A stretch of 64,000 nt of DNA from an uncultured Eubacterium sp. GTDB lineage: Bacteria; Bacillota; Clostridia; Lachnospirales; Lachnospiraceae. A model generated the notes under the pieces. It worked only from the letters and a program-made list of their open reading frames with translations. It was not told the origin of the DNA and made no database searches. The translations under genes and the position numbers were made by a program. Positions 50,042-54,278 of this stretch are shown here, in pieces. Positions within the stretch are counted from its first letter, which is position 1. Every line of letters begins with the position of its first letter. The stretch is from assembly GCA_947642745.1 (NCBI GenBank), contig CANRTU010000002.1, positions 1 through 64,000 on the forward strand. The letters run 5' to 3'.

Positions 50042-52279
50042 TTATCCCACTTTCTTTATCTGTATCCCGTCATAAAAAAATGCCAGTATTTTCTTATAAT
50101 CCCAGCCTCTCTCCCCCATTCCGTCCGCAGCATACTGGCTCATGCCCATGCCGTGTCCATTGCCGCCGCCTGTGAGTATATAGCGTCCGCTTTTTTTATC
50201 GAAAGAGATGGAGACATACGCACTTGGCAAAAACCTGGTGCCGGTATCTTCCCTGCCGTCTGCGTATCTGACCTGTTCCAGCGCACATCCCAGGATAGAC
50301 CGGATATTATATTCAGATCTTATTTCCACCCTTCCGTATTCAAAACAGATGACCAGATTTAATACAGCCCCGCTTTTACTCCGTTTTCCGCAGTACATTT
50401 TTTTCACACCGCCAAATCCCCGCAGGGAAGAAACTATCTTTTCCTTCTTTCCTACAGTGGCATAATATGTAATATTATCCGGATTCATGGTCTGTCTGGA
50501 CTGGATGCATTGTTTTAATTCTTCCAGCCGGCTGCTAAATTCCGCCCTGGCAGTCCACCGGAAATACGGACTGTCACTGTCAAATACTTCCTTATCCATA
50601 GAAGTAATATATTTACGAAACGCCTCTTCTTTTGACAGATCCGCCGTTTTTCCTTTTTCTTTTAAAACTTTTGCTTTCAGATACGGGCAGGCATCTTTCT
50701 GGTTCCAGATTTCCATACCGGAAGTATACCCGCAGGAAGCTGAAAAGTAATAAGCGTTTACTATTTCGTTGCCAGCGTACATCACTTCCCCGGCTGTCTG
50801 TGTAACCGCTTCCACGTCTTCTTTTGTATATGCGCCGCGATTATATACCTGGTAATTGGTACTGTCATCGATCTGGGCATGATAACTGTTGTAGTCACCG
50901 GAAGCCATCTGCCGGTATACATAGCTGCGGGCGCAGACTGCCTGCGCCTTTAACGCTTCCGGCGCAAAGGAAGAGGGCATTTCACTGGCTACCACAGAAT
51001 ACAGGTACTTTTCTACATCTACTTCATTTACCACATAATATCCGTCTGCGTCTTTGTATATTTCCATCTTTCCATAATATCCGTTTGAAATCTTACCGCC
51101 GCCGGCATCCGCGAAAAACAGCCGGCTGTCTTCCTTTTGCGGAACCGCTGTAATATATGTTCCATTTTTTATTTTCAGCTGTTTCGTACTAATGAAATCG
51201 TCTTTTTTACAGCTCTTTTTCTTTTTGTTCTGTTTTATTTCCCAGTTTCCATTACAGGTCAGATATAACTGGTCGTAATGGACCGCCCCCTGGTTTAAAA
51301 GCAGCACCCGCACCGGCCCTTTCACCGCAGGGGCTGCGGCTGCTTCTGTCTTAACGGCCGGTTTGGACTCGCTGCTCTCTGGCTGACTGATATCCCGTAT
51401 ACTTACCGCTTTTTTATTCTTAATCCGCAGTGTACAATTCGTATTTTCGGACAGTCCGTCTGTATCTTTACAGGAGAGCTGATACCCTTTCCCTTTATAT
51501 TCAAAATAAATCTGCCCGTCTGTGACAGAATCTATCATTACATCCTTTAAGACAGCTGCCTGGTCTGAAATCCCGTGAATCCCAAGCAGGGTTTTATCCA
51601 TAATATAAGCCTCATAGACCTGAAAAGATTCCAGTTCCAGAAAATCCGCCTTTACTGCCAGCGTTCCTTTATCCGTTTCGCAGCTTCGGGCTGACTGTTC
51701 CAGTAACAAAATATTTTTTTTACGCACCGCTCCATCCAGATCCAGATAATCCAGAATCTGGCTGTAATAGTCCATAATATTTTCCCGGCTTACCTTCCCG
51801 CTGCCTCCTGTCACTGGCAAAAGCTGGGACAAACCGATCTGCTGGATGCATTGTTTCAGCTTTCCTCTTGTCACCGGCCTGGCGGCTGTCTCCTCCTGCC
51901 AGAGTCCCTCCGGTTTCCGGCTGCTTTGCGCTTCGTCCGCTCCGCCGGAAGATGTTTCTGTATCTTTATCAGAAGTGTTTCCAGAAGAGTTAGCAGAACC
52001 TTTACCCGCATCTTTGACCGCTTTCCCGGATGTTTCTTTTACGTCCTGAACCAGAAAGGACAGTAAGGAGGCAAATTCATCCTCGGATACGTATTCCAGG
52101 CCATTTTCCTGTTTTTTATGATGAAATGTAACGAATAACACGGCTAAAAAGCATATGACTGAAAGCCCCGTCGCGCCTAAACGGATCCACCAGCCCTGCC
52201 GGTCTTTCAGATACAGTATCTGCCTGCTGTTTCCCTGTTTAATTTTCCGGTATCGTTTTACTTTTTCTGCTCTATCCAT
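50042..52279 (-). CDS. SpoIID/LytB domain protein
   Basis: This 745-residue protein has a short basic cytoplasmic tail, one membrane helix at about residues 33-52 (LGATGLSVICFLAVLFV), a Ser/Lys/Glu-rich spacer, an N-terminal extracytoplasmic part of unknown fold, and a SpoIID domain from about residue 430 (VEKYLYSVVASEMPSSFAPEALKAQAV with the catalytic Glu, then SCGYTSGMEIW). SpoIID is a lytic transglycosylase acting on denuded peptidoglycan during engulfment. The long extra domain suggests a vegetative or specialised paralogue rather than the roughly 340-residue spoIID. The protein ends with GNGHGMGMSQYAADGMGERG, typical of the family. Confidence 0.88.
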   Translation of the reverse strand: MDRAEKVKRYRKIKQGNSRQILYLKDRQGWWIRLGATGLSVICFLAVLFVTFHHKKQENGLEYVSEDEFASLLSFLVQDVKETSGKAVKDAGKGSANSSGNTSDKDTETSSGGADEAQSSRKPEGLWQEETAARPVTRGKLKQCIQQIGLSQLLPVTGGSGKVSRENIMDYYSQILDYLDLDGAVRKKNILLLEQSARSCETDKGTLAVKADFLELESFQVYEAYIMDKTLLGIHGISDQAAVLKDVMIDSVTDGQIYFEYKGKGYQLSCKDTDGLSENTNCTLRIKNKKAVSIRDISQPESSESKPAVKTEAAAAPAVKGPVRVLLLNQGAVHYDQLYLTCNGNWEIKQNKKKKSCKKDDFISTKQLKIKNGTYITAVPQKEDSRLFFADAGGGKISNGYYGKMEIYKDADGYYVVNEVDVEKYLYSVVASEMPSSFAPEALKAQAVCARSYVYRQMASGDYNSYHAQIDDSTNYQVYNRGAYTKEDVEAVTQTAGEVMYAGNEIVNAYYFSASCGYTSGMEIWNQKDACPYLKAKVLKEKGKTADLSKEEAFRKYITSMDKEVFDSDSPYFRWTARAEFSSRLEELKQCIQSRQTMNPDNITYYATVGKKEKIVSSLRGFGGVKKMYCGKRSKSGAVLNLVICFEYGRVEIRSEYNIRSILGCALEQVRYADGREDTGTRFLPSAYVSISFDKKSGRYILTGGGNGHGMGMSQYAADGMGERGWDYKKILAFFYDGIQIKKVG

Positions 52280-52474
52280 TTCCCTACTCCCAAAGTACCA
52301 CAGGAGCGTATCTGAAAATCACTTTCCCGGTGTGCACACCCCCATTGTCAGTATTTCCTCTGTACAGGCTGCGTTATTGCAGAAAGCATTTTTCAGGCAC
52401 GCTCTGGTACATGTATGTAATACCTTATGATTTCCATCTGGATTTATAACGGCATTTCCAGTCTATATACTATG
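52280..52474. other. Upstream region of the SpoIID-domain gene
   Basis: About 195 bp without a gene. No clear promoter for the SpoIID-domain gene was fixed. The plus-strand ORF 52155-52430 in the track overlaps the coding region and has no support. Confidence 0.4.
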
Positions 52475-52506
52475 AAAAGAAGCTGCAAACCAATGCAGCT
52501 TCTTTT
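52475..52506 (-). terminator. Terminator at the end of the 6S/array transcript
   Basis: AAAAGAAGCTGC (52475-52486) and GCAGCTTCTTTT (52495-52506) are perfect 12-bp arms around an 8-base loop. On the minus strand it follows the ACRRAAGATA array. T/A runs are present on both sides, so it may work in both directions. Confidence 0.75.
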
Positions 52507-52696
52507 TCTTTCGTATCTTTGGAATTCTTCTGCCGTATATTCAGAATTCTTTTGTATATTTCCGAAAGGCTTTCTCTTCTGGTACTATCTTTTGTATTTC
52601 CAGAAAGACCTTATCTTCCGTAGGTTCAGGATCTTATCTTTTGTTAAAATCCGGCCGCTATCTTTCGTGTTTATAAATCTTATCTTTTGTAGAAGT
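52507..52696 (-). repeat. Array of about eight ACRRAAGATA motifs downstream of 6S RNA
   Basis: On the minus strand, degenerate copies of ACAAAAGATAAG appear about every 20-26 bp, with one or two wider gaps: ACAAAAGATAAG, ACGAAAGATAGC, ACAAAAGATAAG, ACGGAAGATAAG, ACAAAAGATAGT, ACAAAAGAATTC, ACGGCAGAAGAA, ACGAAAGAAAAA. Several lie in the loop of a small stem: GGAT/ATCC, ACCT/AGGT, TTCTGG/CCAGAA, GAATTCTG/CAGAAGAATTC. The first copy starts at the 3' end of the 6S RNA and the last runs into the terminator. Confidence 0.7.
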
Positions 52697-52883
52697 ATCC
52701 CCAGAGTGCCGGTCCCACAATTTTGACGCCTAGCAAAGCCAGGTTGGGTAACCTCAATGGAGCTTCTGTCTTCCACTGCGTAATGATGGCCTGACATCGA
52801 CCCCAAGATATTGGAATCCCGTGAAAAAAAATGTAGGTTCAAAATAGCAGGTTATCGAACACCCCAGGTTAATACTCTTGCTA
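52690..52883 (-). ncRNA. ssrS: 6S RNA (SsrS)
   Basis: The minus-strand transcript expected from the promoter at 52.9 kb can form the long closing stem of 6S RNA: CTGGGGTGTT near the 5' end pairs over ten positions (with G-U pairs) with GGCACTCTGG near the 3' end, and AGAGTAT pairs with ATACTTCT outside it. The pieces CTGGGGTGTTCG and CGGCACTCTGGGGAT resemble E. coli 6S CTGAGATGTTCG and CGGCATCTCGGAGAT. Inside, ATTTTGA pairs with TCAAAAT, and the small hairpin CCTGGCTTTGCTAGG lies on the 3' side of the central bubble region. Length of about 190 nt fits. 6S RNA binds housekeeping RNA polymerase by mimicking an open promoter. The ORF 52585-52842 of the track is a false gene over it. Ends are estimated. 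Confidence 0.75.
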
Positions 52884-52889
52884 AAAATG

Positions 52890-52918
52890 ATTATACTCTA
52901 CTATGTGCAGTATTGCAA
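52890..52918 (-). promoter_or_regulatory. Promoter of 6S RNA
   Basis: TTGCAA (52913-52918) and a perfect TATAAT (52890-52895) with 17-bp spacing. The start point is expected near 52883. Confidence 0.8.
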
Positions 52919-53030
52919 CAAATATTTACATACAAGATGATGTATTTTATGGTATTTTTTCTGCCTGTAACTCCCTTAACGTTAAGTGGATAAAAAAGTC
53001 TTCATTTAACTTCTTAAAGTTTACATAATA

Positions 53031-54278
53031 TTAATTATGTTTCTGTTCTGGTATATGATCCGGTACCTGTTCTGTTTCCGGCATTTCCAGCTGTAGGTCT
53101 TCTTCGTTCAAAAGCGCGGTCTTTCCGTGTTTTTGCAGCCCCATAATGACAAGCCGTTTTACAAAACTGTAAATGACCGCAAATACCGGCACGCCAACCA
53201 GTATACCGGTAAACCCGAAAAATCCCTGAAACAGCGTAATTGAAAACAGCACCCAGAAACCGGACAGCCCCACACTGTCCGCCAGCAGTTTTGGCCCCAG
53301 GATATTTCCGTCAAACTGCTGTAAAATAATAATAAATATCACAAAAATCACGCAATTAAGCGGACTGGAAATCAGTACCAGCAGCGCTGACGGCACGGCC
53401 CCGATATAAGGTCCGAAATAAGGAATCACATTTGTGACGCCGATAATTACACTGATGAGCACCGCATTTGGAAAATCCATGGTGAACGTCATAATCATGC
53501 AGAACACATAGCAGATCACTCCCACAATGGCGCTGTCCAGTATTTTTCCGCCAAAAAAGCCTACGAACGTTTTATCTATAAATGATACTTCTTTCAGGAT
53601 TTTATCCGCCCGATCCCCTTTAAACATGGCGTACAGCACAGCTTTTCCCTGTCTGGCAAAGGTCCTGCGGCCAAGAAGCAAATAAATGCAGATGATTACG
53701 CCGATCAAAAGATTACTGAACATGCTGACCACAGATGTGACCGTACTGGCCACACCGCCCATCATCCCCTGCAGGGCAGGCAGCAGATCTGACTGCGCCC
53801 AGTCTTCCAGTTTCATTTCCAGACTGGCGATAGTAGTATTCACATATCTTTGCGCCACTGCGTTGCCGTCCAGCTGCCCGGTCAGCCATCCGGCAAATTC
53901 GTCCACTTTTTGCGGCAATGCGTTAATCAGAATCAGAATGCTTTCAACCATTTCCGGAATTACCATGCTAAGCAGCAGGTAAATAATTAAAAATGTCAGA
54001 ATAATTACCAGCGTTACCGTAATCCCGCATGCCCGTTTTTTATGTTTTGGCGCAAGAAACGATTCGATTCTTTTTTCCAGAAAGTTGCATGGTGTCTTTA
54101 GTAAATATGCCAGAACCGCCCCGTATATTACCGGTGTCAATACACCTAAAAGCCAGTGAAAAGACTGGCGGATCTGCCCGATTTCCTTAATGGCAAAAAA
54201 CAGCAGAATCGCCAGCGCCAGAGACAAAAATCCGGACAGTGACTGATAAAATATTCTCTTTAAATCTTCTTTTTTCAC
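53031..54278 (-). CDS. AI-2E family transporter (PerM/YtvI-like)
   Basis: This 415-residue membrane protein has seven or eight predicted helices and AI-2E/UPF0118 motifs (LTPVIYGAVLAYLLKTPCNFLEKRI, VIPYFGPYIGAVPSALLVLISSP, LQQFDGNILGPKLLADSVGLSGFWVL). Members export small molecules or ions; AI-2 transport is proven only for some. The GTG at 54278 is chosen because GAGGGAGG stands 9 bases before it, which removes ten residues from the track start. A promoter with a palindrome in its spacer lies upstream. Confidence 0.88.
   Translation of the reverse strand: MKKEDLKRIFYQSLSGFLSLALAILLFFAIKEIGQIRQSFHWLLGVLTPVIYGAVLAYLLKTPCNFLEKRIESFLAPKHKKRACGITVTLVIILTFLIIYLLLSMVIPEMVESILILINALPQKVDEFAGWLTGQLDGNAVAQRYVNTTIASLEMKLEDWAQSDLLPALQGMMGGVASTVTSVVSMFSNLLIGVIICIYLLLGRRTFARQGKAVLYAMFKGDRADKILKEVSFIDKTFVGFFGGKILDSAIVGVICYVFCMIMTFTMDFPNAVLISVIIGVTNVIPYFGPYIGAVPSALLVLISSPLNCVIFVIFIIILQQFDGNILGPKLLADSVGLSGFWVLFSITLFQGFFGFTGILVGVPVFAVIYSFVKRLVIMGLQKHGKTALLNEEDLQLEMPETEQVPDHIPEQKHN

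Follow-up and report, generated by a model that had tools for sequence, protein, structure and literature searches.

The 6S RNA gene of an uncultured Eubacterium sp. is followed directly on its 3′ side, before the first terminator, by an array of eight copies of a short word of the form (U/C/A)AC(R)(R)AAGA, seven strict and one degenerate. 6S RNA with an array immediately 3′ of it was found in 13 of 13 genomes of the same genus, and sequence comparison indicates that in each of them the array belongs to the 6S transcription unit. Within the limits of such comparison, the analysis demonstrated a transcript-bound location, strand bias, conservation, purifying selection and an absence of conserved stems. 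We propose that the tail may be a linear, single-stranded multi-site platform or sponge for a putative sequence-specific RNA-binding protein, a reading to which we give close to an even chance.

The window (the whole 64,000-nucleotide stretch of DNA analysed) carries 6S RNA (SsrS, RF00013) at 52694..52873 on the minus strand, with an Infernal score of 64.8 bits against a gathering score of 46.4 (E 1.6e-10). A predicted sigma-A type promoter of the 6S unit (TTGCAA, 17 nt, TATAAT) lies at 52890..52918 (−) and is near-invariant across 13 loci of the genus. The motif copies follow on the same strand, with start-to-start spacings of 22, 24, 23, 26, 40, 19 and 22 nt. Copies 1, 5 and 6 (52683..52691, 52588..52596 and 52548..52556) read UACAAAAGA; copies 2 and 3 read CACGAAAGA (52661..52669) and AACAAAAGA (52637..52645); copy 4, UACGGAAGA (52614..52622), is the sole GGA-bearing copy of the window; and copy 7, UACGGCAGA (= TACGGCAGA; 52529..52537), is degenerate. 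Four nucleotides beyond copy 8, UACGAAAGA (52507..52515), begins the core stem of a bidirectional intrinsic terminator, AAAAGAAGCUGCA-loop-UGCAGCUUCUUUU (52475..52506, minus strand), which is kept in 12 of 13 genus loci. This was the only terminator-like hairpin detected by a pattern scan of 52200-53100, which placed it at 52474-52507, and it adjoins the last motif copy. On the same strand, the gene upstream encodes a transporter of the AI-2E family and the one downstream a protein with a SpoIID domain.

About 70 nt upstream of 6S RNA (52890-52960 (−) in the window; L002-L013 elsewhere in the genus) are almost invariant, including an AT-rich stretch past the −35 element. This invariance exceeds what a simple promoter needs.

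Strict ACRRAAGA occurs 22 times on both strands of the whole 64 kb, compared with 7.6 ± 3.1 times in shuffled sequences, and none of 100 shuffles reached 22. This corresponds to about 0.01 copies expected on one strand of the array stretch, where seven fall inside 184 nt, and the window array is far above chance. Tandem Repeats Finder reported no tandem array at the locus, and a satellite-like head-to-tail organization was not found there.

Conservation across the genus ties the array to the 6S transcript. In the 12 loci whose terminator could be recognised, where arrays are 189 to 1,205 nt long, ACRRAAGA is present between the 6S end and the terminator in 102 sense copies and no antisense copy; past the terminator it is absent from both strands over 6.9 kb. 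The first terminator-like hairpin after 6S RNA is a conserved AAGAAGCUGC...GCAGCUUCUUUU located behind the array in 10 of 13 genus loci. That the copies keep to one strand and to the transcribed stretch points to a role in RNA rather than in DNA. A sequence-only reading of this locus had described repeats downstream of 6S RNA on the same strand, attached to it and co-transcribed with it, and followed by a single terminator. The eight copies and the lone hairpin agree with the first and last of these statements, while conservation, strand bias and confinement before the terminator bear out the second; the motif conservation in close relatives on which that reading had been made to depend is seen as an array in all 13 genus genomes.

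Several features of the genus arrays were noted in passing. In L007 the conserved terminator hairpin after the array has been lost, and no good terminator follows for about 1 kb. A G+C-rich GCGGCC/GGCC element occupies the spacer before the third copy in L001, L003, L004, L006, L007, L010, L012 and L013, and in other clades UGCGCA(U)AAG is found at a comparable position. In the long arrays (L005, L008, L009, L010 and L011), GGUUCAUG / GAACUUCAU words recur in either orientation and could possibly form long-range stems in the tail.

Elsewhere in the window's own genome the motif shows no comparable clustering: all five matches to a triple-motif pattern lie inside the 6S array, the remaining 26 single matches are nearly all within open reading frames, and no mRNA of this genome was recognised as a target with the same motif. 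Triple-motif clusters elsewhere in the genomes of relatives resemble tandem-repeat, probably coding, stretches, and a scan of viral contigs returned 117 stretches with a pattern that also matches coding repeats.

De novo expectation-maximisation from random seeds defined the motif as U(0.8) A C(0.99) R R A A G(0.99) A, and UACRRAAGA gained no strong extension on either side. The sequence-only reading had given the word as ACRRAAGATA ('ACAAAAGATAAG'); its repeated core stands, but the core is UACRRAAGA, and the trailing UAAG lies outside the conserved word. The motif does not occur in 6S RNA itself. Selection on the copies was assessed in eight close array pairs, within each of which copy number is identical. 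With each pair compared in both directions, so that counts are doubled, and a copy required to match in at least one partner, motif differences were found at 20 of 792 sites, as opposed to 103.9 expected from base-matched spacer rates, so that motif bases change five times less than spacers; indels affected 0 of 792 motif positions and 90 of 2208 spacer positions. Low divergence, lack of indels and equal copy number together indicate that both the individual copies and their number are under purifying selection. The spacers between copies are unrelated and drift while the copies stay. Because selection keeps copies and not spacers, a putative partner would read the copies, and would probably be an RNA-binding protein or an RNA-cutting enzyme.

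We asked whether the copies are displayed in hairpins, as had been suggested from the short stems that frame several of them. These stems are present in this genome and surpass swapped flanks (local hairpin energy −3.6 vs. −1.7 ± 0.8 kcal/mol, n=5), but they are not conserved, being gone in the nearest relative, L003, whose array is 79% identical. Enclosure of copies by stems showed no excess over spacer shuffles in 43 arrays (z −0.19 ± 0.16), and local hairpins were equal to flank-swapped controls for 106 genus copies (z −0.67) and for 249 copies elsewhere (z −0.22). The idea that a loop motif is kept while its stems vary therefore fails at the level of 43 arrays and 355 copies, where stems are at chance, and together with the L003 comparison these results rule out hairpin display as a general feature. 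A tetraloop closed by a C-G pair, C[RRAA]G, was also rejected, as the C and G positions lack compensatory changes, as was base-pairing between the tail and the 5′ leader of 6S RNA, since the U-rich leader seen in the genus does not occur in other genera that keep the motif. With stems at chance level, recognition would be of a linear word, and the comparisons indicate that UACRRAAGA acts as a linear, mostly unpaired sequence.

The element extends beyond the genus. 6S RNA was found in 325 of 348 sampled genomes of Lachnospiraceae. A scan of 85,462 species, represented by one genome each, with a query consisting of the 6S 3′ end followed by two motif copies, returned 74 stretches; 8 without 6S features were dropped, leaving 66 with 2-21 copies, a few of which come from the same species as genus genomes already counted. 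Nearly all 66 are from Lachnospiraceae by record title, and seven of the scan loci (L300, L304, L311, L257, L309, L253 and L293) were confirmed as 6S by Rfam. Carriers of arrays include the cultured Roseburia inulinivorans DSM 16841, Eubacterium ramulus, Lachnotalea glycerini, Konateibacter and Galacturonibacter. Among 103 tails taken from the best-scoring 6S matches in other Lachnospiraceae genera, one or more relaxed copies lie no further than 50 nt from the 6S end in 45 (2.7 expected), and the strict motif lies in that interval in 25 (0.2 expected). The last or single copy in 6S tails of the family usually ends 0-5 nt before the terminator stem, with a mode of 2 nt. A general tail signal of stable RNAs was ruled out, since only 1 of 30 tmRNA tails of Lachnospiraceae has the motif, and so was a general feature of Clostridia, with the motif in 2 of 30 6S tails from other families. 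Copy number differs widely between species, and the arrays look like amplifications of a single terminator-side element. They are clustered on a 6S gene tree that forces at least two changes and whose resolution is too poor for gains to be counted.

These features suggest the following model. The 6S gene of the genus would give rise to a bipartite transcript, composed of a normal 6S domain, a long A-rich and largely unstructured tail, and a terminator, with each UACRRAAGA copy serving as a site for a putative sequence-specific single-stranded RNA-binding protein. One terminator-side copy, the common state elsewhere in the family, may recruit this protein to 6S RNA, and amplified copies would turn an abundant RNA into a multi-site platform or sponge resembling CsrB/CsrC, with a different protein and a different word; copy number would then tune the capacity for bound protein. 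A protein binding site is the best fit for a selected linear 9-nt word that has two near-invariant bases and occurs in many copies on an abundant RNA. Many kept copies on an abundant RNA are also the usual layout of protein-titrating RNAs, which supports a platform or sponge; CsrB, for example, binds about 18 CsrA subunits per RNA (PMC7652899). Single-copy tails are poor sponges, which argues against the sponge reading. More tentatively, it is possible that Lachnospiraceae 6S RNA has two functions, with one domain sequestering RNA polymerase and the amplified UACRRAAGA tail sequestering or recruiting a second global RNA-binding regulator. If this is the case, one abundant RNA would couple transcriptional with post-transcriptional control.

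The main rival overall, which we regard as rather unlikely, is that the motif is an endonuclease processing site, with RNase Y-like G/A cleavage or a UAC-specific MazF/EndoA-type enzyme freeing mature 6S RNA from its terminator, and that arrays are repeated cutting sites. The terminator-side copy could equally be a cleavage site: the last copy usually lies 0-5 nt before the terminator stem, and the position of single copies would suit 6S trimming. The cuts that RNase Y prefers fall 3′ of a G in poorly structured, AU-rich RNA (PMC4608709) and inside a G/A dinucleotide (PMC11780869); the motif, with its AAG-A step in an AU-rich open context, is compatible with this preference. The RNase Y consensus is nevertheless weak and dispersed, whereas the motif is a 9-nt word with near-invariant C and G, and the EndoA word UACAUA, which has UAC in common with the motif, is unmatched beyond UACA, with the R at the fourth position permitting G. 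One site would also suffice for processing, yet every copy and copy number are kept.

Pairing with other RNAs is an improbable explanation. Here the copies would be repeated antisense seeds for target RNAs bearing UCUUYYGUA, and it is plausible for an abundant RNA to carry a repeated seed; whether A or G stands at positions 4 and 5, it would still pair with U. Variants with C or U at these positions exist, however, conservation between copies is far above the need of wobble-tolerant pairing, and a target set was not seen. It appears just as improbable that the array works co-transcriptionally, for instance as transcription-factor sites on nascent RNA that control whether transcription terminates or pauses on reaching the end of the 6S unit. 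Copies located strictly between 6S RNA and the terminator, with one typically abutting the latter, would be expected on this basis, but tails can be as long as about 1.2 kb and include copies distant from the terminator, and the motif is not seen in the tmRNA tails, which likewise end in intrinsic terminators.

A CsrA sponge of the CsrB type, the comparison originally drawn from the sequence, is very improbable, even though a sponge-like multi-site layout is supported. The UAC of the motif resembles the SELEX word RUACARGGAUGU, and 11 of 13 genus genomes have csrA. Of the other genera sampled, it was found in 7 of 7 with three or more copies and in 8 of 19 with fewer, an association that is confounded by ancestry and may mirror the shared descent of motile lineages. 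GGA, on the other hand, is rarer in the arrays than in shuffles (182 vs. 262) and occurs in one window copy only, as had been observed at the outset in noting that most copies lack the GGA core, and the sites are not in hairpin loops in the 43 arrays, the 355 copies or L003. Flagellin leaders of the genus and of other array-bearing genera have AAGGA hairpins and a Shine-Dalgarno sequence, matching the known CsrA consensus (PMC7652899), so that CsrA specificity looks normal; taken with the depletion of GGA, this makes CsrA unlikely as the partner. The window's 88%-complete assembly lacks csrA as well as the FlgL-like gene that adjoins it in relatives, which makes an assembly gap likely; three other flagellin-type genes are present.

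With regard to the Csr system itself, the flagellin leaders of L324, L336, L345 and others have an AAGGA-loop hairpin (e.g. GUCGCAAGGAUGCGAC) and, between it and the start codon, AAGGAGG, the textbook arrangement of a two-site leader of the CsrA type; a conserved GGAGCGUACGGC element lies upstream. Genomes have up to six csrA-domain genes. Further CsrA-domain open reading frames, separate from the main csrA and 106-175 aa long (54-65 bits), were located at G002:C32:32374, G004:C74:12305, G004 C175:5332, G006:C9:12461 and G320:C61:22461, none of them more than about 1 kb from a flagellin gene.

It is hardly credible that the array arose without function, by tandem slippage or by duplication of the 3′ end of 6S RNA, the latter also raised from the sequence alone: copy number does vary widely between species, but the motif is missing from 6S RNA itself, no tandem array is present, the spacers are unrelated and purifying selection is strong.

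Few bacterial RNAs have been studied as much as 6S RNA, which is generally viewed as a compact decoy for RNA polymerase. A selected, copy-amplified and family-wide 6S tail element, in a family that is dominant in the human gut, would mean a further layer of 6S biology, in the form of a partner protein, processing or a sponge function. The motif is sharp enough for a pull-down bait, and with Roseburia inulinivorans, Eubacterium ramulus and Lachnotalea glycerini as cultured carriers the protein platform proposed here is directly testable. In the literature searched, no description of a 6S RNA tail array was found, an absence that is no proof, nor was any paper linking 6S RNA with Roseburia; only one named both 6S RNA and Lachnospiraceae.

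The window transcript begins with an ordinary 6S RNA that has a promoter of its own. The 6S RNAs described so far have lengths of about 180-200 nt, and the Rfam model (RF00013), of 187 positions, lacks the repeat-bearing 3′ tail that the window 6S RNA has. When Rfam 15 models were run on the tail, only 6S reached its cut-off, and sub-threshold matches centred on the terminator. Type III toxin-antitoxin RNAs (ToxI, CptI) also have tandem RNA repeats before a terminator, whereas the copies in the window tail are 9 nt long and separated by unrelated spacers, and no toxN-like gene lies beside the array, whose neighbours are the SpoIID and AI-2E transporter genes. CrcZ sites are A-rich, and Hfq sponges of this type have loose A-rich repeats, unlike the tail motif, a set word of 9 nt whose C and G hardly vary. 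Titration of the RNA-binding protein Hfq by a CrcZ-type RNA is described in PMC5501646. RNase Y and EndoA sites share with the tail motif an AU-rich unstructured context, a G-A step and a UAC start, but the motif is much longer and stricter, repeated, conserved copy by copy and confined to 6S tails. The closest parallel in layout is with CsrB, CsrC and RsmZ, which likewise carry many degenerate short protein-type words on one non-coding RNA with an intrinsic terminator; their GGA lies in hairpin loops, while the tail has UACRRAAGA, no conserved stems and a fusion to 6S RNA. We rate the window transcript as a 6S RNA bearing a multi-site tail, similar to the CsrB class in the way it would work but outside that class.
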